Assembly (NCBI GenBank): GCA_949840955.1 | Contig: CATKXV010000004.1 | Coordinates: 1 to 63,803 of the forward strand | Reading direction: 5' to 3' | DNA length: 63,803 nt | Source: an uncultured Anaeroplasmataceae bacterium | GTDB taxonomy: Bacteria > Bacillota_I > Bacilli_A > Acholeplasmatales > Anaeroplasmataceae | In this document: in pieces, positions 26,115 through 35,531 of the stretch | How positions within the stretch are numbered: the first letter of the stretch is position 1 | Layout: the number at the start of each line of letters is the position of its first letter | Translations under genes and position numbers: made by a program | Notes under the pieces: model-generated | What the model was told of the DNA's origin: nothing | What the model saw: only the letters and a program-made list of their open reading frames with translations | Databases searched by the model: none

Positions 26115-27104
26115 CTATTTATAAGCCTTATCTAGTAGAGCAGCATCAGCTAACGCTATAGCCACACAGGCCTCTAAAACAACCTGAGCCCTTACTATAA
26201 TTGCTGAATCATGACGCCCTTCTATCCTAAGTTCTTCTACTTGTTCCGTCCTTTTGTTATAGGTTCTTTGAGGAAGACCAATGGAAGGAGTTGGCTTTAC
26301 AAAAGCATGAACCACAATTTCATTTCCATTGGATATACCCCCATTTATACCTCCATTATGATTGGTTTGGGTCGTACCCTTTTGATCCATAATACAATCA
26401 TTAAATTCACTTCCCAATAAAGAAGCTCCTTCAAAGCCAATCCCAAAGGATACCCCCTTAACTCCTCCAACAGAAAATAAAAGATGAGCTATAGTAGACT
26501 CTAAAGAATCAAAATAGGGTTCTCCTAATCCAATAGGTAGCTGATTCACTTTAATCTGAACGATTCCACCAATAGAATCCTGTTTTTTTGCGACCTCCTC
26601 TAAAATACTTTGGAATTCTTCTTTCTTCGTTTTTCCACCCAAATTGATAATCTCTGTTTGAAAGGAAGCATTTTTAAGAATTTTTTTGGCAACCACTCCC
26701 GCAGAAACTATACCTAGCGTAAGTCTTCCAGAGAAAAAACCTCCTCCACGATAATCCTGATATCCCTTGTATTTCTCATTGGCTACAAAATCTGCATGGG
26801 ATGGTCTTGGCTGATCTAACAGCTTGGTATAATCCTTGCTTTTTACATTTGTATTCAAAAAACGAATTAAAATAGCTCCTCCAGTGGTATGTCCTTGAAA
26901 TACACCTGTTTCTAATTGAATTTCATCAGGCTCTATCCTAGGGGTTGTTCCAATCCCTCCAGCCTTTCTTCTAGATAGATCTAGATAAAAATCCTCTTCC
27001 TTTAATGGTATTCCTGCTGGAACTCCATCTAAAAGAATTCCAACACAATTTCCATGACTTTCACCAAAAATATTTAGTTGAAATAATTTTCCAATATGGT
27101 TCAT
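26115..27104 (-). CDS. aroC: Chorismate synthase
   Basis: FMN-dependent enzyme converting EPSP to chorismate, the last common step of the aromatic pathway. 329 residues, slightly short for the family (350-390). Motifs: GESHGNCVGILLDGVP at the start, RRKAGGIGTTPRIE, SHADFVANEKY and a C-terminal EGRHDSAIIVRA. It is the last gene of the aro operon, 21 bp after the aroE fusion gene. Confidence 0.95.
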   Translation of the reverse strand: MNHIGKLFQLNIFGESHGNCVGILLDGVPAGIPLKEEDFYLDLSRRKAGGIGTTPRIEPDEIQLETGVFQGHTTGGAILIRFLNTNVKSKDYTKLLDQPRPSHADFVANEKYKGYQDYRGGGFFSGRLTLGIVSAGVVAKKILKNASFQTEIINLGGKTKKEEFQSILEEVAKKQDSIGGIVQIKVNQLPIGLGEPYFDSLESTIAHLLFSVGGVKGVSFGIGFEGASLLGSEFNDCIMDQKGTTQTNHNGGINGGISNGNEIVVHAFVKPTPSIGLPQRTYNKRTEQVEELRIEGRHDSAIIVRAQVVLEACVAIALADAALLDKAYK

Positions 27105-27125
27105 AAAAGCCTCCTATTTTTATCT

Positions 27126-28538
27126 TTATTCATCAATATCCTCTAATCTTCTTTTTAATCGCTCTTGAGATTCCTTGGATATATATTGATTATATTTTTT
27201 TTCATCCATTTTCAAATTTAAGGATTCCAATAAAACGGGTGTCCATTTTCTAGTCCTTAAATTGAATTCAAAGCTCCATAAAAGCCATGCATAATCAGAC
27301 CATACATCGCCAAGACCACTATTATCCAAATCAATAAACCCTATTGTCTCATGATTTACATAGATGTTTGGCAAGCATAAATCTCCATGAATAAAGTGAT
27401 TGCCTTGACTATCTGATAGGAAAGGGCAATTCTCTTTATCCAAGCTTCTTAATAAATCCACAGCCCGAGTTACATTCTTTATTAAAAGAGGGGGATTGGC
27501 TAAAAGCTCCTTAGAAATTAGGCTGTTGCCTTGAAGACAGGTTCTTAAATAATAAGCCTTCTCCTGTGTTTCTTTATATGCAATGCTTTTCATGCCATGA
27601 ATTCTATCATATAACCAATCCGTTTTTTCTTTTTCTTTCCTTAATCGTTTTTTGTCTAAAGAAATTTTTAAAATGTATTGATTGCTAAAATTATATATTT
27701 CATCTCCACTACGTCCTAAGGAATCCTTTTTATAGTTTAAATTAGAAGCATACAACAAAATCTCTTTGGGAAGAGAAAAAATAAACTCTATGGATTCATT
27801 CATTTTCTGAATAGAAATAGGAAGATCTTGATTTTGCCAAATCTTCTCTGCTTGAATCGCCTGAGAAATAAGCATATGTAGTCCATTCATTTTTGAATTA
27901 GCATCACATAAAAGCTTTGTTTGCTTTGGATTAAAAATGATATCCATAACCACCTTAGCCCTTTGAGCAATCTCTTTTGAAACAGGGCTTTCATCTACAT
28001 TAGGATACATCCCCACAGGTGTTGTATTAACTAGGATATCTATCTTTTTTTCTTTCAAAGCCCTATAGCTGATTTCATCATTTTTAGGAGTTCTAGAAAC
28101 AAATATACAATTTCCTCCGAAATCCTTTAAAACAGCTCCAACAGCTAAAGAGGCTCCTCCTGTTCCAAGAATAAAGCAATCTTTCTTTGCTGCGTCAATT
28201 TGATAATGCTTCAAAGTCTCTAAAAAGCCATCATAATCCGTGTTTGTTCCATAGGCTTTTCCATTTTTTAAATAAACTGTATTTACACTTCCAATTTGTT
28301 TTGCTTTTTCGTCAATACCATCTAAATAAGAAATGATTGCTTTTTTATACGGAATTGTGACATTAAAGCCTGAATATATTCCATCCTTTAATTTTTGGAT
28401 GTACCCAATAAGCTCATTTTCTTGGCATTCAATCAAATGATAGGTGGCATCGATATGGAATTGATTATAAATATAGTTATGAATTTGACAGGAATAGCTA
28501 TGACCTAATTTTTCTCCTAATAATCCATAGTACTTCAT
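27126..28538 (-). CDS. aroE: Shikimate dehydrogenase fused to an APH-type kinase domain
   Basis: Residues 1-255 are AroE: LGHSYS shikimate site, catalytic NVTIPYKK (Lys65/66), SVNT (Asn86), NTDYDGF (Asp101), NADP loop GTGGAS (125-130). Residues about 262-470 are an aminoglycoside/choline-phosphotransferase-like kinase: GRSGDEIY, YILKIS (Lys291), HGDLCLPN (384-391, Asp386 as catalytic base) and GFIDLD (Asp403, metal). Only 13 residues separate CPF (371-373) from Asp386, so the segment that carries the aminoglycoside-binding loop in APH(3') is missing. No stop interrupts the frame. The operon lacks aroK, so shikimate kinase activity is a plausible guess; aminoglycoside resistance or an unrelated kinase role cannot be excluded. 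Confidence 0.88.
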   Translation of the reverse strand: MKYYGLLGEKLGHSYSCQIHNYIYNQFHIDATYHLIECQENELIGYIQKLKDGIYSGFNVTIPYKKAIISYLDGIDEKAKQIGSVNTVYLKNGKAYGTNTDYDGFLETLKHYQIDAAKKDCFILGTGGASLAVGAVLKDFGGNCIFVSRTPKNDEISYRALKEKKIDILVNTTPVGMYPNVDESPVSKEIAQRAKVVMDIIFNPKQTKLLCDANSKMNGLHMLISQAIQAEKIWQNQDLPISIQKMNESIEFIFSLPKEILLYASNLNYKKDSLGRSGDEIYNFSNQYILKISLDKKRLRKEKEKTDWLYDRIHGMKSIAYKETQEKAYYLRTCLQGNSLISKELLANPPLLIKNVTRAVDLLRSLDKENCPFLSDSQGNHFIHGDLCLPNIYVNHETIGFIDLDNSGLGDVWSDYAWLLWSFEFNLRTRKWTPVLLESLNLKMDEKKYNQYISKESQERLKRRLEDIDE

Positions 28539-28804
28539 TTGATTAAATCCTTTTGGTAGGCCTTAGAGGCTTTTAATACTCCATCAAAAAATATTTGATA
28601 ATATTCTTCTAAATTCTTATCATCAAGTATGGATAAATTTTTTACGAGAAGGGCTTGTTCTCTAGAAGAATCCACTACATCTAGCTTATGATTTTTCTTA
28701 TATTCTGCAACCTCAAATACCGCTTGCATTCTTTGCTTAAATAAAGAAATCATTTCCTGATCAATTTGATTAATTTTATTTCTTGCCTCATCTAATTTAT
28801 TCAT
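28535..28804 (-). CDS. aroQ: Chorismate mutase, AroQ class
   Basis: 89-residue stand-alone chorismate mutase (chorismate to prephenate). The all-helical AroQ pattern is clear: LDEARNKINQIDQEMISLFKQRM with the conserved Arg near 8 and Asp/Glu, then VAEYKKNHKL, and a final helix with the motif around YYQIFFDGVLKASK. It overlaps aroA and the aroE fusion (ATGA), so it is tightly coupled. It makes prephenate for TyrA in the same operon. Confidence 0.88.
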   Translation of the reverse strand: MNKLDEARNKINQIDQEMISLFKQRMQAVFEVAEYKKNHKLDVVDSSREQALLVKNLSILDDKNLEEYYQIFFDGVLKASKAYQKDLIK

Positions 28805-30062
28805 AGGTAATATTTCCTCCTAAAGATTCAAAAATCTCCCAAAAATTAGGATAGGATTTTGAAACACATTCTGCATTTACTATGGTTAAGGGCTCCTTCA
28901 TTTTTAAGCTTGCCATTGCAAGCGCCATTGCAACTCTATGATCATTGTAGGAATCAACAATTCCTCCCTGAAGATGAGGAACACCATATATTGTCATAGT
29001 ATCTGGTTCCTCCTCAATATGAGCACCGAGTTGATTTAATGCTTCTCTCATACAGGAAACCCTATCACATTCCTTAATTCGTAAGCGTTCCACATGCCTA
29101 AAGCAAGATATTCCCTCTGATACGCTGGCTAAAACGGTTAAGGCTGGACCTAAGTCCGGAGATTGTGAAAAGTCAATCGTCGTCCCCTTTGTTAGACCTG
29201 GGCTACAAAAAAGAGATTCATCATCCATATAAATGTTTCCATGAAAGGCTTGAATATCCTCTATGATTTTTTTATCTCCCTGATAGGAATCCCTTCTCAT
29301 TCCCTTAAGCTTTATATCCGCTCCCATTGCTCCTGCAATAAGAAAGAATGCCGTTTGGGAATAATCTCCTTCTACTGTATAGTTAAAAGGCGTATAGGTT
29401 TGATTTCCTTCAATAAAAAATTCCTCATAATGATGGTTGGTAATATGTATGCCAAACATAGATAGGATATCTAAGGTTAAATCCACGTATCCTTTGGATT
29501 CTAAGTCTCCAATGATTTTTATTTTAGAATCTCCATTTAATAAAGGGAGTGCAAACAATAGCCCTGTAATAAACTGTGAAGATATATTTCCCTTAACCTC
29601 ATAGCATCCAGGAATCAAGCTCCCCTTTGTTTTAAGTGGCAAATAGGCATCTAAAGGATGGCTATAGGATATCCCTAGCCTGTCAAAGATTTTAAAATAA
29701 GAATCTAAGGGACGTTTTACCAAATGATTTTTACCTCTAAATTCCATAGGCTCTGGATTGACTAAGGCTAAGGGAATTAAAAAGCGTAAGGTAGACCCCG
29801 ATTCATTGGCATCAATGAAGCATTCCCTTCTAAGAATATCTGAGCCTGTAATCCTAAGTGTTGTGTCTTCTACCTTTATAGAGGCTCCTAGAGCCGTCAT
29901 TCCCTTTATGGTAGCTTCAATATCCTTAGAAAGCATAACATTAGAAATGATACTTTCTCCTTTTGCCAAGGAAGCAGCTATAATGGCACGATGAGATAAG
30001 CTTTTAGAGGGTGGAATTAAAACCGTTCCCTTAAGTTGCTTGGGTTGAATGGTAACCTTCAT
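28797..30062 (-). CDS. aroA: 3-phosphoshikimate 1-carboxyvinyltransferase (EPSP synthase)
   Basis: 421 residues, the family size. It joins shikimate-3-phosphate and PEP. Motifs: PPSKSLSHRAIIAA (Lys and Arg of the PEP site), ESGSTLRFLIP, GDYSQTAFFL, and RIKECDRVSCMREAL. It overlaps aroB by 4 bp and aroQ by 8 bp. Its substrate requires a shikimate kinase, which is not otherwise present in this operon. Confidence 0.96.
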   Translation of the reverse strand: MKVTIQPKQLKGTVLIPPSKSLSHRAIIAASLAKGESIISNVMLSKDIEATIKGMTALGASIKVEDTTLRITGSDILRRECFIDANESGSTLRFLIPLALVNPEPMEFRGKNHLVKRPLDSYFKIFDRLGISYSHPLDAYLPLKTKGSLIPGCYEVKGNISSQFITGLLFALPLLNGDSKIKIIGDLESKGYVDLTLDILSMFGIHITNHHYEEFFIEGNQTYTPFNYTVEGDYSQTAFFLIAGAMGADIKLKGMRRDSYQGDKKIIEDIQAFHGNIYMDDESLFCSPGLTKGTTIDFSQSPDLGPALTVLASVSEGISCFRHVERLRIKECDRVSCMREALNQLGAHIEEEPDTMTIYGVPHLQGGIVDSYNDHRVAMALAMASLKMKEPLTIVNAECVSKSYPNFWEIFESLGGNITYE

Positions 30063-31084
30063 TTGATCAGCTCCTTTAAATTACTCTCCTTCAAAGGGTA
30101 TAGGTAAGCATTCCCTATATTTTTTAGCAAAACGACTTGGATTGTTCCTGCTAAATTCTTTTTATCCTTAGCTATTTCCTTTAAATATGTTTTATATTCT
30201 GGTTCTTCGAATGGAAGCTCATAAAGCTTTAATATTTCTTTTACCTCATCATAGCAGGCTATAGGGGTTATTCCTAAATCTATACCAAAGCGTAAAACCA
30301 TAAGCATTCCAAGCCCAACAGCTTCTCCATGCTTTAGATTTTTTTCTAATTCTATTGCATGACCAAAGGTATGTCCAAAATTAAGAAGCATACGCTCCTT
30401 CGTATCAAAAACATCCTTTTCAACAACTTCCTTTTTAACACATAGGCTTTGATAAATCATCTCTTCCTCTATAGCAGGCTTACTTTTAAGAGCCTCAAGC
30501 AGCTTCGGATTTCCAATCACAGCATGCTTAATCAGCTCCCCCATTCCATTGTTCCATTCTCTTTTTGGTAACGTATGTAAAACCTTGGGATCAATTAAAA
30601 CCATGGATGGTTGCTTGAAACAGCCTATAATATTTTTTCTACAGGAAAAATCTATCCCTGTCTTTCCTCCAATAGAGGAATCCATTTGACTTAATAAGGA
30701 GGTAGGCACATTTACATAGGGAAGCCCACGATAAAGTGTAGCAGCAACAAAGCCACACAAATCACCTATAACTCCTCCACCTAAGGACAATAGTAGCTCA
30801 TTCCTTCGAATATCCTTATCCAAAAGCTCTTGGATTACCTTAGTATACATTTCAATGCTTTTGGATGCTTCTCCATGAGGGACAATGACACTTTCTACCT
30901 CATACTCCTTTAAGCTATTTTGAATTACATTCAAATACAGCTTTTCAACGATATCATCAGTTATAATATAAATTTTTTTATGGGAATATATCTGTTGAAT
31001 ATAAAAAGAAAGATGAAAAAGAATATCATCTTCTATGTAAATGGGATAAGCATTTTCCTTTACTTCTATATTGAGCTGTCTCAC
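30059..31084 (-). CDS. aroB: 3-dehydroquinate synthase
   Basis: NAD- and metal-dependent cyclisation of DAHP. 341 residues. Motifs: PHGEASKS, GGGVIGDLCGFVAATLYRG, MDSSIGGKTGID, GELIKHAVIG, and HTFGHAIE (metal ligands). It overlaps tyrA and aroA by 4 bp each, consistent with coupled translation in the operon. aroD, the next step, is missing from the cluster. Confidence 0.96.
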   Translation of the reverse strand: MRQLNIEVKENAYPIYIEDDILFHLSFYIQQIYSHKKIYIITDDIVEKLYLNVIQNSLKEYEVESVIVPHGEASKSIEMYTKVIQELLDKDIRRNELLLSLGGGVIGDLCGFVAATLYRGLPYVNVPTSLLSQMDSSIGGKTGIDFSCRKNIIGCFKQPSMVLIDPKVLHTLPKREWNNGMGELIKHAVIGNPKLLEALKSKPAIEEEMIYQSLCVKKEVVEKDVFDTKERMLLNFGHTFGHAIELEKNLKHGEAVGLGMLMVLRFGIDLGITPIACYDEVKEILKLYELPFEEPEYKTYLKEIAKDKKNLAGTIQVVLLKNIGNAYLYPLKESNLKELIK

Positions 31085-31911
31085 TTTTCCATCTTCTTTC
31101 TAACTATAGTTGATTGATTAAATAGCTTTTTAAGTGTTTCCTTATCATTTTGCTTCAGTGCAGCCTTTAATAAATCCAATTGCTCCTCAAAGCTAGAAAT
31201 ATGCTTTAAAAGATACTCTTTATTCTCTAAAAAAAGCTCACTCCATAGGGCATCATTAATCATAGCTATTCTTGTTAAATCTCGATAGGAGTCTCCGATA
31301 AATTGAACCGTATCTTCATCATGGTCACTATTGACTAAAGAAACCGCAATCGCATGTGTTAATTGAGAGGTAAAGCCAATCATTTGATCATGACGTTCTA
31401 CAGAGATTGTTGTTATCCGTCCAAAATCTAAGTCCTTAGCAATTCTTTCTAAAACTTGAATGGCTTCTGTCTTCCTATCATCTATAGGAGTAATTAAGAA
31501 ATTCGCTCCTTTAAATATTTTATAATCGGCATATTCAATACCAATTTTCTCTTTTCCTGCCATAGGATGATGAGATACATAGGTTGCTTTCCCAGCTAGA
31601 AGGGTAGCCTTTCTAATAAAAGAGCCTTTTACACCACAAACATCTGTTATTACCTGATGAGGTAAAAACAAAGAGGAATGCTCCTGTAAAAAATGTAAAA
31701 TTGCTTGAGGATAAATAGCAAGAATGATGCAATCACATTTTGAAATTATAGAATAATCATTATGATATCCCTCAATAATATATTCATTTTCCTTAGCATA
31801 GGCGATTGCCTTCATATCCTTATCTATCCCATAGACCTCATGTTCCTTTAAGGCTAATCCCATAGCATAAGAGCCACCAATCAATCCCAAACCAACAATA
31901 CAAATTTTCAT
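31081..31911 (-). CDS. tyrA: Prephenate dehydrogenase
   Basis: 276-residue TyrA without a C-terminal ACT domain (the longer forms are about 360), so it is probably not controlled directly by tyrosine through ACT. GLGLIGGSYAMGL (7-19) is the NAD loop and YGIDKD suggests NAD preference. HHPMAGKEK and TSQLTHAIA carry the catalytic His and Arg/Ser region. It overlaps aroF (TAATG type) and aroB. It converts prephenate to 4-hydroxyphenylpyruvate for tyrosine; no pheA is present in the cluster. Confidence 0.93.
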   Translation of the reverse strand: MKICIVGLGLIGGSYAMGLALKEHEVYGIDKDMKAIAYAKENEYIIEGYHNDYSIISKCDCIILAIYPQAILHFLQEHSSLFLPHQVITDVCGVKGSFIRKATLLAGKATYVSHHPMAGKEKIGIEYADYKIFKGANFLITPIDDRKTEAIQVLERIAKDLDFGRITTISVERHDQMIGFTSQLTHAIAVSLVNSDHDEDTVQFIGDSYRDLTRIAMINDALWSELFLENKEYLLKHISSFEEQLDLLKAALKQNDKETLKKLFNQSTIVRKKMEK

Positions 31912-32924
31912 TATAGCTTTTTCCCAACAATTGGAGCAATCAATTTTAATTGCTTCATCATATGATCAAAGCGCTCAGGCTTTAGGCTTTGTGCTCCATC
32001 ACATAAGGCACATTCTGGGTTATTGTGTACCTCTACAATAATACCATCTGCACCAACAGCTAATGCTGCTTTAGATAAGTCCTCTACCATAGACCACTTT
32101 CCAGCAGCATGAGATGGATCTACAATCACAGGCAAATGGGACAATTCCTTTACAGCTAAAACAGCAGATAAATCTAGAGTATTTCTTGTATATTTTTCAA
32201 AGGTACGAATTCCACGCTCACATAATATAACCTTATCATTTCCACCAGCCAAAATATATTCAGCAGCCATGAGCCATTCCTCTATTGTTGCAGATAAGCC
32301 TCTTTTTAATAAAATTGGTTTGTCAATTTTACCTAAGGCCTTTAATAAATGGAAATTTTGCATATTTCGAGCTCCAACTTGAATGATATCCACATCCTTT
32401 ATATAACGCTCTATCATATCCTCAGATTGAATCTCTGTAATTATTGGAAGCCTTGTTACCTCACGAGCCTCCATCAATAAATCCAGCCCCTCAAGCTCAA
32501 GTCCCTGAAAGGCATAAGGAGAGGTTCTAGGCTTATAGGCACCACCTCTTAAAATATGTGCTCCACTTTCCTTTACACTTGTAGCAACAGATACAATTTG
32601 GTCATGATTTTCCACAGAGCATGGACCTGCCATTACCGTAAAATTTCCACCACCAATTTTTACCCCACATACATCAATAACCGTTGGCTCAGGATGAAAC
32701 TCCTTCGAAGCCTTTTTATATGGAACCTGTATACGCGTAATAGCCTCTACACCAGATAAAGCATAAACATCACTATCCATCATTTTTGAGGTATCCCCAA
32801 TAATACCAATGACCTTAACGTCTCCACTGCTAGCATCCTTGATATCTAAATTTCTATCCTTAAAATATTGAACTATATTTTCATAATCTCTTTCACTTAA
32901 ATTTTGTTTTAATCTAATAATCAT
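31911..32924 (-). CDS. aroF: DAHP synthase (type I beta with N-terminal regulatory domain)
   Basis: First enzyme of the pathway. The 337-residue protein has an N-terminal ferredoxin-like domain (about 1-70), which in Thermotoga-type enzymes binds Tyr/Phe for feedback, then the barrel with MAGPCSVE, GGAYKPRTSPYAFQG, KRGLSA, ILCERGIRTF and DPSHAAGK. ATG 32924 is used, with AAGGAA upstream; longer frames pass through the promoter. First gene of the aro operon. Confidence 0.95.
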   Translation of the reverse strand: MIIRLKQNLSERDYENIVQYFKDRNLDIKDASSGDVKVIGIIGDTSKMMDSDVYALSGVEAITRIQVPYKKASKEFHPEPTVIDVCGVKIGGGNFTVMAGPCSVENHDQIVSVATSVKESGAHILRGGAYKPRTSPYAFQGLELEGLDLLMEAREVTRLPIITEIQSEDMIERYIKDVDIIQVGARNMQNFHLLKALGKIDKPILLKRGLSATIEEWLMAAEYILAGGNDKVILCERGIRTFEKYTRNTLDLSAVLAVKELSHLPVIVDPSHAAGKWSMVEDLSKAALAVGADGIIVEVHNNPECALCDGAQSLKPERFDHMMKQLKLIAPIVGKKL

Positions 32925-32961
32925 TATTATTCCTTCTTTCAATACAATAATATTATAAACC

Positions 32962-32990
32962 ATTTTATCATAATTCAACATTTCTTTCAA
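32962..32990 (-). promoter_or_regulatory. Promoter of the aro operon
   Basis: Minus strand: TTGAAA (32985-32990), 17-bp spacer, TAAAAT (32962-32967), about 38 bp before aroF. No T-box, riboswitch or attenuator is visible, so control may rest on feedback at AroF. Confidence 0.65.
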
Positions 32991-33010
32991 GGTAAGTCCA
33001 TCTAGATTCA

Positions 33011-33042
33011 AAATAAAATGCCTAGGTATGAAACACTAGGCA
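33011..33042 (-). terminator. Terminator after the serpin gene
   Basis: Stem TGCCTAG/CTAGGCA (33019-33042) with a 10-nt loop, then TTTTATTTT on the minus strand. It divides the protease-serpin operon from the aro operon. Confidence 0.8.
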
Positions 33043-33060: not shown

Positions 33061-34308
33061 TTACTTGTTAATATTTTGTATTACACCTGAAAATAATACT
33101 ATGTCTGTCTCATTCTCCGTGATAAGAAATCCAAAGGGACGATCAACAACAAAGTCTTCATATTCCTTTTTTTTCATATTACTATCTCCATAAATAGAGG
33201 TATAGGTAATTGCTCCAGCAGCAATACCATCCTGTTGAACATCTATATAAATGTTTTGTTGAATATCACTAATTTGAGCTTCCATATCTTGGAATATTGA
33301 AAAATCTAAAGAGGATTGAAAAGGTGTTTGAATGCCTAATTTTTGACATAAATCCTTTATTGATGTCGAAGAAGAAACTTGGAAAGCTGGGAAAATACAT
33401 CTAGTTTGATAAAATGTATTACCACTTGAAATTGTATGCTCTGCTGTAACCACTTCTTTTATCGTTTTTGCATTCAAAACCTGGTTCAAATTATACTCAT
33501 CTTTGGGTAAGATGAAAGATAGCTTAAATCCATTTTTAGTAGTAATATAAAAGCTTTTGTAACTATCTCCTTCAAATGCTCTTCCATCCTCATAATTTCC
33601 TAATAGCATTTTTGTCCTTTGGCCCTCAAACATATATTCCTCAGTGCTTCGTAATTTCCCCTTTGACCAAACATCCTTTAAGCATAATAGATTCATAAGA
33701 ACCATCAAAGTTCCAGGATCGAATTCAGGCATAATAATATCTAAATCTCCAAAAAAGTTTTGTAAATAGTCTTCAACACTTTTTTTATCAGAAAAATCTG
33801 TTTTAAATACCTTTGCTTGAAATAAATTAATTAAATTAGGTAAAACTGTTGTATTTATATGAAACTTATCTTTAAGCCAAACACTATTATTTAGTCCAAA
33901 AAAGCCTTCTTTTATGGTTTCTAATTGATTTCCATTAGTTTCTGTAATTTCGTCCCCATAAAAGGTTTTATTATTTTTATAGTTTTTAACTATAGTTTCA
34001 ATATCACTTTGATTCATAGATAAGGCATCACTTATTTCCTTATATGAATTATTTTTAGTTACAAATCTTAGCATTGCTAAATTGTAAAAAAGTGATAGTG
34101 GAGAATATGCTGCATTTTGTTCTACGTCAGAATTAAAATACATTTCAGATGTGCGATATGAAAATTGATTCAATTTATCCAAAGCTATATCTAATTCATC
34201 CTGTAATATGATTTCATGATCACTTTTTAACTTATTATCCTTATTCTCAGCACTTTGACAAGATACTAAAAATAAAAACACAACAAATATCATTAAAACT
34301 TTTTTCAT
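33061..34308 (-). CDS. Serpin lipoprotein (serine/cysteine protease inhibitor)
   Basis: 415 residues with a lipobox (LVSC, Cys17), so it is probably tethered outside the membrane. Serpin marks: NAAYSPLSLFYNLAML, the breach region, and VDRPFGFLI followed by VLFSGVI. The reactive centre loop (about 358-386) has the hinge DGIAAGAITYT, small residues as needed for insertion as a strand, so it should be inhibitory. The scissile bond is probably near Tyr373-Gly-Asp-Ser; I cannot fix P1. It starts at the protease stop (TAATG), so protease and inhibitor are co-translated. Confidence 0.93.
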   Translation of the reverse strand: MKKVLMIFVVFLFLVSCQSAENKDNKLKSDHEIILQDELDIALDKLNQFSYRTSEMYFNSDVEQNAAYSPLSLFYNLAMLRFVTKNNSYKEISDALSMNQSDIETIVKNYKNNKTFYGDEITETNGNQLETIKEGFFGLNNSVWLKDKFHINTTVLPNLINLFQAKVFKTDFSDKKSVEDYLQNFFGDLDIIMPEFDPGTLMVLMNLLCLKDVWSKGKLRSTEEYMFEGQRTKMLLGNYEDGRAFEGDSYKSFYITTKNGFKLSFILPKDEYNLNQVLNAKTIKEVVTAEHTISSGNTFYQTRCIFPAFQVSSSTSIKDLCQKLGIQTPFQSSLDFSIFQDMEAQISDIQQNIYIDVQQDGIAAGAITYTSIYGDSNMKKKEYEDFVVDRPFGFLITENETDIVLFSGVIQNINK

Positions 34309-35531
34309 TATTGTATCCTCTCTTTCATATCAATAGGAACTTCAATAGAAAGAATTCCTTGAATTGGACCATCTATATTTATCTCTAACATTTGTAAGCA
34401 ATATATACAATTAGAATAAAGCTTTCCATTTTTTCTAATATAGTCTTTCGTATTAATTGTGTGTGCACTTTTTTTCATTGCATCGCATAAACACAATTCA
34501 TAATGCTGAATTAAATTAAATTGTCTATAACGTCTATAATGGTGTTGATGTGTTGGATAAATACTATAAAAATCACAAGCACAATATGATTCTCCATTAT
34601 AACTAAAATTATTACTGCAAATATGATCTTCTAAATTTGTAATTGCAATTGCAAAATCATAAAAATCATATCCTATATAAGATAAACAAGAGTAAGAACC
34701 AAAATCTTCTAAACCTGTATTAAAATAAATTTCATCGGTTATTTCGTTATATTCATATGCAACTACAACGTGTCCATTTCCCTCATCATCACGAATACCC
34801 ATTAGCACTGGCACTCCCTGCTGTATCATTTCAATAGCATATGATTTAGCAGTTAAATTTCTATCATAATTAGTTTGAATAGAAATATTATTAAAAGAAG
34901 ATTCTAAATAGTTTTTCAAAAAACTATTTATTTGATTAAAATTCATTCCCAATGAAAACTCTCCGTTTGGCAAATTATAAACATTTATATATTTTGAAGA
35001 AGAATTAAGAGCAATATCTAATAGATACAAATGAAAATAAGTTAAAGCATTTTCCTCAATAAAATTTTTATAATTATTAAAAGAATATCTTCCATATAAG
35101 TTTATTTTTTGATTATAATCATCCAAAAATTTTGCCTTATCACCAATAATTCCCGAGGAAGAGTTAAAAATCATCTCATTTGATAAAACTGAAATATTTT
35201 CCGTTTTATCATATCTCTCTGGAATGAGTCTATCATCCCATACTGTATCATAATAAGATAAGAGCATTCCGATAGCTACTAGTCCGCAAGATCCAAAAGC
35301 ATTAAAGCCTATATTTTCATTTAAATTAAGAAAATATTTTTGCATCAAATTTAAAGTCAAACTATTTGTTGGCAAAAAATTATGATGATTGTCAGTTTGA
35401 TTTTCAGAATATCCTTGTAGACTGGTACTCAGATATATTTTTTCATCATAATCCATTGTTTCGTTTAGTGATAACGAAGAAATAAAACCGATGCTAAACA
35501 AAAATGTAATAAATAAAATAACTTTTTTCAT
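34308..35531 (-). CDS. Secreted papain-like cysteine protease
   Basis: 407 residues with a signal peptide (about 1-20). The catalytic triad is visible: Cys82 in FGSCGLVAIGMLLSYYD, His254 in GNGHVVVAYEY and Asn271 in IYFNTG, as in C39/papain-like enzymes. Residues about 305-395 hold Cys pairs (CACD, CLCD, CIYC) and many His, perhaps a metal-binding or disulfide module. It lies directly before the serpin and follows a promoter with Spo0A-like boxes. The target is unknown. Confidence 0.8.
   Translation of the reverse strand: MKKVILFITFLFSIGFISSLSLNETMDYDEKIYLSTSLQGYSENQTDNHHNFLPTNSLTLNLMQKYFLNLNENIGFNAFGSCGLVAIGMLLSYYDTVWDDRLIPERYDKTENISVLSNEMIFNSSSGIIGDKAKFLDDYNQKINLYGRYSFNNYKNFIEENALTYFHLYLLDIALNSSSKYINVYNLPNGEFSLGMNFNQINSFLKNYLESSFNNISIQTNYDRNLTAKSYAIEMIQQGVPVLMGIRDDEGNGHVVVAYEYNEITDEIYFNTGLEDFGSYSCLSYIGYDFYDFAIAITNLEDHICSNNFSYNGESYCACDFYSIYPTHQHHYRRYRQFNLIQHYELCLCDAMKKSAHTINTKDYIRKNGKLYSNCIYCLQMLEINIDGPIQGILSIEVPIDMKERIQ

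Follow-up and report, generated by a model that had tools for sequence, protein, structure and literature searches.

A secreted protease encoded together with its cognate inhibitor is a layout already known in other bacteria. Among the proteins involved, staphostatins are small cytoplasmic proteins, and the KLIKK enzymes of Tannerella forsythia are metallo- and serine proteases. The staphopain-staphostatin (C47/I57) and SpeB-Spi (C10) systems consist of a papain-fold secreted cysteine protease co-transcribed with an adjacent specific inhibitor (PMC2873492). In Bacteroides, the Bfp (C10) cysteine proteases are co-transcribed with Bfi inhibitors, which are predicted to be exported or lipid-anchored and for which protection of the producer was proposed (PMC2873492). 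In the KLIKK-potempin operons, a secreted protease gene adjoins a lipoprotein gene, and the potempins, mutually unrelated in sequence, have been described as specifically inhibiting the protease encoded beside them (PMC4404884, PMC7296668).

As for serpins, they trap a protease when it cuts their loop. Several of them trap cysteine proteases such as cathepsins, calpains and caspases, and the cross-class serpin SERPINB3 (SCCA1) inhibits and traps the staphopains (PMC7863939, PMC4136820). The Group T bacterial serpins include miropin, the siropins, the Bifidobacterium serpin and tengpin (PMC8233489). Neither for these nor for SCCA1 did we find a description of a gene encoded with a cysteine-protease partner. 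In the literature searched, where subscription journals are thinly covered, no report was found in which a serpin and a cysteine protease are encoded together, or in which a serpin is the guard in such a layout.

The locus described here lies in a stretch of 63,803 nucleotides (the window) from a gut-type bacterium of the Anaeroplasmataceae. On the minus strand, a peptidase ORF of 407 aa (35531-34308) is directly followed by a serpin ORF of 415 aa (34308-33061), and the stop codon of the first overlaps the start codon of the second in the sequence TAATG. The serpin has its own Shine-Dalgarno-like site, GAGAGG (34317-34322, minus strand), about 9 nt 5' of its ATG and within the last codons of the peptidase gene. 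Overlap and ribosome site together suggest that translation of the two genes is linked. An earlier note on this DNA had described a secreted peptidase followed at TAATG by a membrane-tethered serpin, and both parts of that description stand. Upstream of the peptidase gene, at approximately 365 bp, there is a pair of ABC exporter genes. Downstream, an aro cluster on the same strand (26115-33011) starts 49 bp beyond the end of the serpin. Promoter and terminator scans gave nothing better than shuffles. The aro cluster also holds a gene (27126-28538, minus strand) in which AroE, the shikimate dehydrogenase, is fused to an APH-type kinase domain. A role of this fusion as a replacement shikimate kinase is not needed, given that the genome has a normal one.

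The first gene encodes a probable secreted enzyme. Its N-terminus resembles a signal peptide, with KK followed by a hydrophobic run and no lipobox (35472-35531, minus strand). The direct Pfam match is weak (PF13529 C39_2, E 0.0021, 19.1 bits versus a cut-off of 24), and the match to NF045837 (Mplas_Cys_pep), a “putative cysteine peptidase” family of Mycoplasma and Spiroplasma, is also below its cut-off (32.1 versus 45 bits, E 8.5e-8). The protein is therefore not strictly filed under either family. Its homologues are clearer: C39_2 matches 11 of 14, three of them above cut-off (L028, L029 and L032), and two (L029 and L032) pass the NF045837 cut-off as well. On this comparison with relatives, the window peptidase is a divergent C39-like, papain-clan enzyme related to NF045837. 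No relative with a solved structure was found by profile search. A pattern scan of genome contigs, in which the signal-peptide patterns were poor, gave one distant relative from the rumen.

The catalytic region covers approximately residues 60 to 300 (34632-35354, minus strand). Cys82, His254, D95, D100 and P241 are invariant in the 14 homologues, and the order of Cys then His is kept in all of them. A triad Cys82-His254-Asn271 had been proposed before. Its first two members hold, but the third is not secure because the Asn271 position is Asn in only 4 homologues and His in the other 10. The C-terminal module rich in Cys and His, also noticed earlier, runs from H303 to C378 (34398-34625, minus strand) and may be a zinc-binding tail. 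G044, a sister species of the same genus, keeps 12 of the 13 Cys/His residues in this module, and related genomes contain other large ORFs that parts of the tail match as well.

We considered and rejected a phage origin. The phage collection contained no relative, and a single IMG/VR contig (L157) carries one that is broken in frame. On that viral contig (L157:4358-6800) the relative of the peptidase lies in two frames beside a lipoprotein gene of 211 aa, followed by recombinase genes.

The second gene encodes a serpin beyond doubt, with PF00079 covering residues 46-411 (33076-34173, minus strand; profile 3-368 of 370, E 1.3e-38). Its best solved relatives are conserpin (9e-18) and animal serpins. 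An N-terminal lipobox LVSC (34258-34269, minus strand) contains Cys17, the predicted lipid anchor. This is the only serpin of the 2.1-Mb genome.

The hinge and reactive-centre loop occupy residues 361-386 (GIAAGAITYTSIYGDSNMKKKEYEDF; 33151-33228, minus strand). Compared with the P17-P9 consensus ExGTEAAAA, the hinge QDGIAAGAI(T) matches at P15 (Gly) and at P12-P10 (A-G-A), and differs at P17 (Gln), P14 (Ile, where Thr or Ser is classic) and P9 (Ile). Although generally unusual, Ile at P14 is typical of the clade of the window serpin. Broadly, the hinge resembles the inhibitory type named in the earlier note, with these three mismatches, and the protein is a candidate inhibitor.

Papain-type enzymes favour an aromatic or hydrophobic residue at P2. 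Both paired serpins carry an aromatic residue and Gly just before the predicted cut, SIYGDS in the window and SIFGNP in G044, and Phe-Gly is also present in the nearest other serpin, of G048. The loops of most related serpins are rich in Ala, Ser and Pro. The motif is weak evidence, since 10 out of 91 serpins have it at some position of the loop core, and as a sign of a cysteine-protease target it is suggestive only. With the hinge Gly taken as P15, the 17-residue count gives Asp375 as P1 and places Tyr373-Gly374 at P3-P2, with the cut expected near Gly374/Asp375. A loop one residue shorter would place Tyr-Gly at P2-P1. In SERPINB3, Gly351-Phe352 lies shortly before the cut site at 354/355 (PMC4136820), and the loop is one residue shorter than the consensus (PMC9604144). 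The loops of the window and G044 serpins are 62% identical and their bodies 47%. The loop value is high, but it is within the range of other serpin pairs and too weak as proof of a fixed target.

Our preferred reading, which we hold to be somewhat probable, is that the serpin is a cognate, surface-tethered, cross-class inhibitor of its partner peptidase and serves for self-protection. The two proteins would form one protease-guard unit. The first gene would give an exported papain-fold cysteine peptidase, and the same message a serpin tethered through its lipid anchor to the outside of the cytoplasmic membrane. Peptidase at the producer's own surface would cut the serpin loop near Y373-G374-D375, and the cut serpin would trap it as a thioacyl complex or unfold it, so that the enzyme is disabled. 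Since the anchor would limit the serpin to enzyme at the producer's own surface, released peptidase would stay active on outside proteins, whether food, host or rival. We infer here that the peptidase is active, that it is the target of the serpin and that self-protection is the purpose. By the 17-residue count, an Asp at P1 and a Tyr at P3 rather than P2 speak against this reading.

When compared to the described systems, the pair resembles the staphopain and SpeB loci in having a putative papain-fold secreted cysteine protease beside its putative inhibitor. Their inhibitors are a lipocalin-like barrel (staphostatin) and a propeptide mimic (Spi), while here it is a full-length serpin, predicted to be lipid-anchored outside. 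Because the inhibitor family differs, we do not file the pair as staphopain-staphostatin. The likeness to staphopain-staphostatin drawn earlier is thus only partial, and the predicted lipid anchor places the pair closer to KLIKK/potempin and Bfp/Bfi. The window pair resembles Bfp-Bfi in the predicted export or anchoring of the inhibitor, but the Bfi proteins are staphostatin-like, have 116-138 aa and include no serpin (PMC2873492). As in the KLIKK operons, a secreted protease gene adjoins a lipoprotein gene. The potempins differ in that they are small, are not serpins and precede the protease, whereas the serpin here follows the peptidase. The window protein has the serpin fold in common with Group T and with SCCA1, and, going by the descriptions found, differs from them in being encoded with a cysteine-protease partner. 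Finally, the NF045837 peptidases belong to the same superfamily as the window enzyme, which falls below their family cut-off, and often have a tethered partner behind them, but none of the members seen has a serpin there. An IgG-cleaving CysP is known from avian mycoplasmas (PMC8593674).

We then looked at whether the pair is kept. In 55 genomes of the family, serpins are present in 17 and detectable homologues of the window peptidase in 8. Close orthologues of both genes were found in one further genome only, G044 (peptidase 55% identical, serpin 48-49%). In this genome the peptidase is cut by the end of contig C119 at the 3' side, and the serpin by the end of contig C91 at the 5' side. This complementary pattern is the one expected of two neighbours divided by a contig gap, and has a chance of about 0.4% if the breaks are independent. 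The pair is thus probably kept side by side in G044, with adjacency read from contig ends and not from one contig. On the outer sides there lie a ferritin-like gene (upstream) and genes of plsY/gyrB type (downstream), named by eye. These differ from the ABC and aro flanks of the window, so the two genes seem to travel together. The serpin tree places the window and G044 serpins in one clade with full support (100), on a long branch.

About 90 serpins of the class were examined, most with at least one upstream gene visible, and among the approximately 88 others none has a homologue of the window peptidase upstream. The pairing therefore appears recent and rests on two genomes, and a class-wide habit of serpin-peptidase pairing was rejected, with a single such pair among the serpins examined. 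Pairing in relatives had been named in advance as a test, and it is found, probably, in G044 and is absent elsewhere. The nearest other case is G291, where a peptidase and a serpin are approximately 4 kb apart on opposite strands.

This distribution bears on a second explanation, which we consider unlikely but the best of the alternatives. An outward-facing serpin may shield the cell from host digestive proteases or those of rivals, and be expressed alongside a peptidase used in feeding or attack, since the same conditions call for both. In this class, serpins are mostly lone lipoproteins with no peptidase neighbour, so the ancestral job of the serpin was probably not inhibition in cis. Those gut bacterial serpins that have been characterised inhibit proteases of the host, and miropin guards its cell from plasmin (PMC8233489). 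Shielding of this kind would leave unexplained the start-stop overlap and the probable pairing in the different genomic context of G044. Nor would it account for the other tethered partners found in the same slot behind homologous peptidases.

These partners form a trend. A lipoprotein or membrane protein on the same strand, at most 31 bp 3' of the homologous peptidase, is present at 30 of 48 assessable loci, compared to 17% of 373 ordinary gene positions in the window and the serpin loci. The first set of 17 loci, mainly from gut Bacilli, contains 12 such partners, and a mainly Mollicute set contains 13 in 22. The effect is large in both. The corresponding P values, 1e-10 for all loci together and 3e-6 for the first 17, err on the optimistic side, as the 48 loci were scored by eye and are partly related, and the background comes from different genomes, none of them mycoplasmas.

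The genome of the window itself has a second pair of a cysteine peptidase and a lipoprotein, on contig C1 (L036:859-2812). It is kept in G042 and G051 (L185, L191), with identities between the window's genome (G000) and G051 of 84% for the peptidase and 69% for the lipoprotein. Such retention across species is as expected of cognate partners. In G046 (L147:818-4036), a lipoprotein of 192-194 aa is present behind a peptidase relative in three tandem copies that are nearly identical.

Against this trend, mere coincidence is improbable. In an ancestor shared by the two sister species, a serpin gene could by chance have landed downstream of a peptidase gene, and the pair is indeed seen in two genomes only, while serpins are common and scattered in the class (66 out of 395 genomes). 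Chance placement fits poorly with the start-stop overlap and the serpin's own ribosome site, with the probable retention in G044 at 48-55% identity despite changed outer flanks, and with the general tendency for tethered partners behind homologous peptidases.

The partners are of several unrelated kinds: the serpin, lipoproteins of 142-480 aa, single-pass proteins and membrane proteins with 4-7 passes. No Pfam domain above cut-off was found in ten that were tested, and without a recognised domain they do not count as known inhibitors. Multi-pass partners would suit the role of an anchor or exporter better than that of an active-site inhibitor, and together with Ile in place of the classic Thr/Ser at P14 they could suggest that the serpin is a tether or substrate, holding the peptidase at the membrane or being released by cleavage; we give this little credence, as P15 Gly and the small P12-P10 residues are kept, the loop has normal length, and a serpin is an unlikely choice as a mere anchor.

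Self-protection by a cognate inhibitor is, in our view, the reading that these comparisons support best. The earlier idea that the protease is paired with its own inhibitor gains from the probable pair in G044 and from the tethered partners behind homologues, and its catalytic Asn271 is the part that is not conserved. As homologous peptidases carry lipoprotein or membrane partners from unrelated families, the serpin appears to take the place of the tethered partner in a widespread two-gene module, in the way that potempins serve KLIKK proteases. A broader proposal is tentative, and we rate it as possible rather than probable. Across the Mplas_Cys_pep superfamily, in organisms that range from gut Bacilli to Mycoplasma and Spiroplasma, secreted C39-like peptidases may in general form enzyme-immunity pairs, each with a co-encoded, membrane-tethered guard of its own. 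These guards would come from many unrelated folds, and in the genus of the window the serpin would have taken over the guard slot.

The survey revealed other serpin layouts in the class. At 16 loci, in two families (f1: L137, L138, L139, L140, L141, L142 and L143; f11: L092, L093, L098, L100, L102, L118, L121, L127 and L134), the serpin forms the extracellular part of a single-pass protein, with a cytoplasmic start of approximately 35-47 residues and one membrane span. These genes sit directly behind an ECF-type sigma factor gene, usually overlapping it by a few bases. Sigma-70 region 2 and serpin domains were confirmed by Pfam in the five pairs scanned. The fusion may have arisen more than once, since the tree needs three changes of label. 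A possible reading is a sigma/anti-sigma system with the serpin as sensor, that is, a protease-sensing switch. No report joining a serpin with an ECF sigma/anti-sigma system was found in the literature searched, and this observation may be more surprising than the peptidase-serpin pair. That the pair serpins descend from ECF-linked serpins within their genus was rejected, as the pair serpins form a separate clade and do not group with the ECF-fused ones.

In G044 the ECF-serpin locus looks decayed (L144/L021, at and around G044:C151:2797-3045), with an ORF of 125 aa that joins a sigma-factor-like start to a serpin end. Serpins of family f14 (L119, L123-L126, L128-L130) have 524-637 aa and probably contain an insertion within the serpin domain, because their Pfam match is split in the middle. 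Lastly, at L151:275-4335 and L153:4291-6832, two or three lipoprotein serpins whose reactive loops differ stand in tandem.

If the preferred reading is true, the peptidase-serpin pair would be the first known serpin encoded together with the cysteine protease that it restrains, according to the literature searched. Natural targets are unknown for nearly all bacterial serpins, and here the co-translated protease would name a candidate target directly. Under the broader proposal, a serpin in the guard slot would also reveal the function of partner families that are otherwise unknown. The pair further suggests surface protection as a possible role of the lipoproteins and membrane proteins, so far uncharacterised, that follow related peptidases in mycoplasmas and elsewhere.
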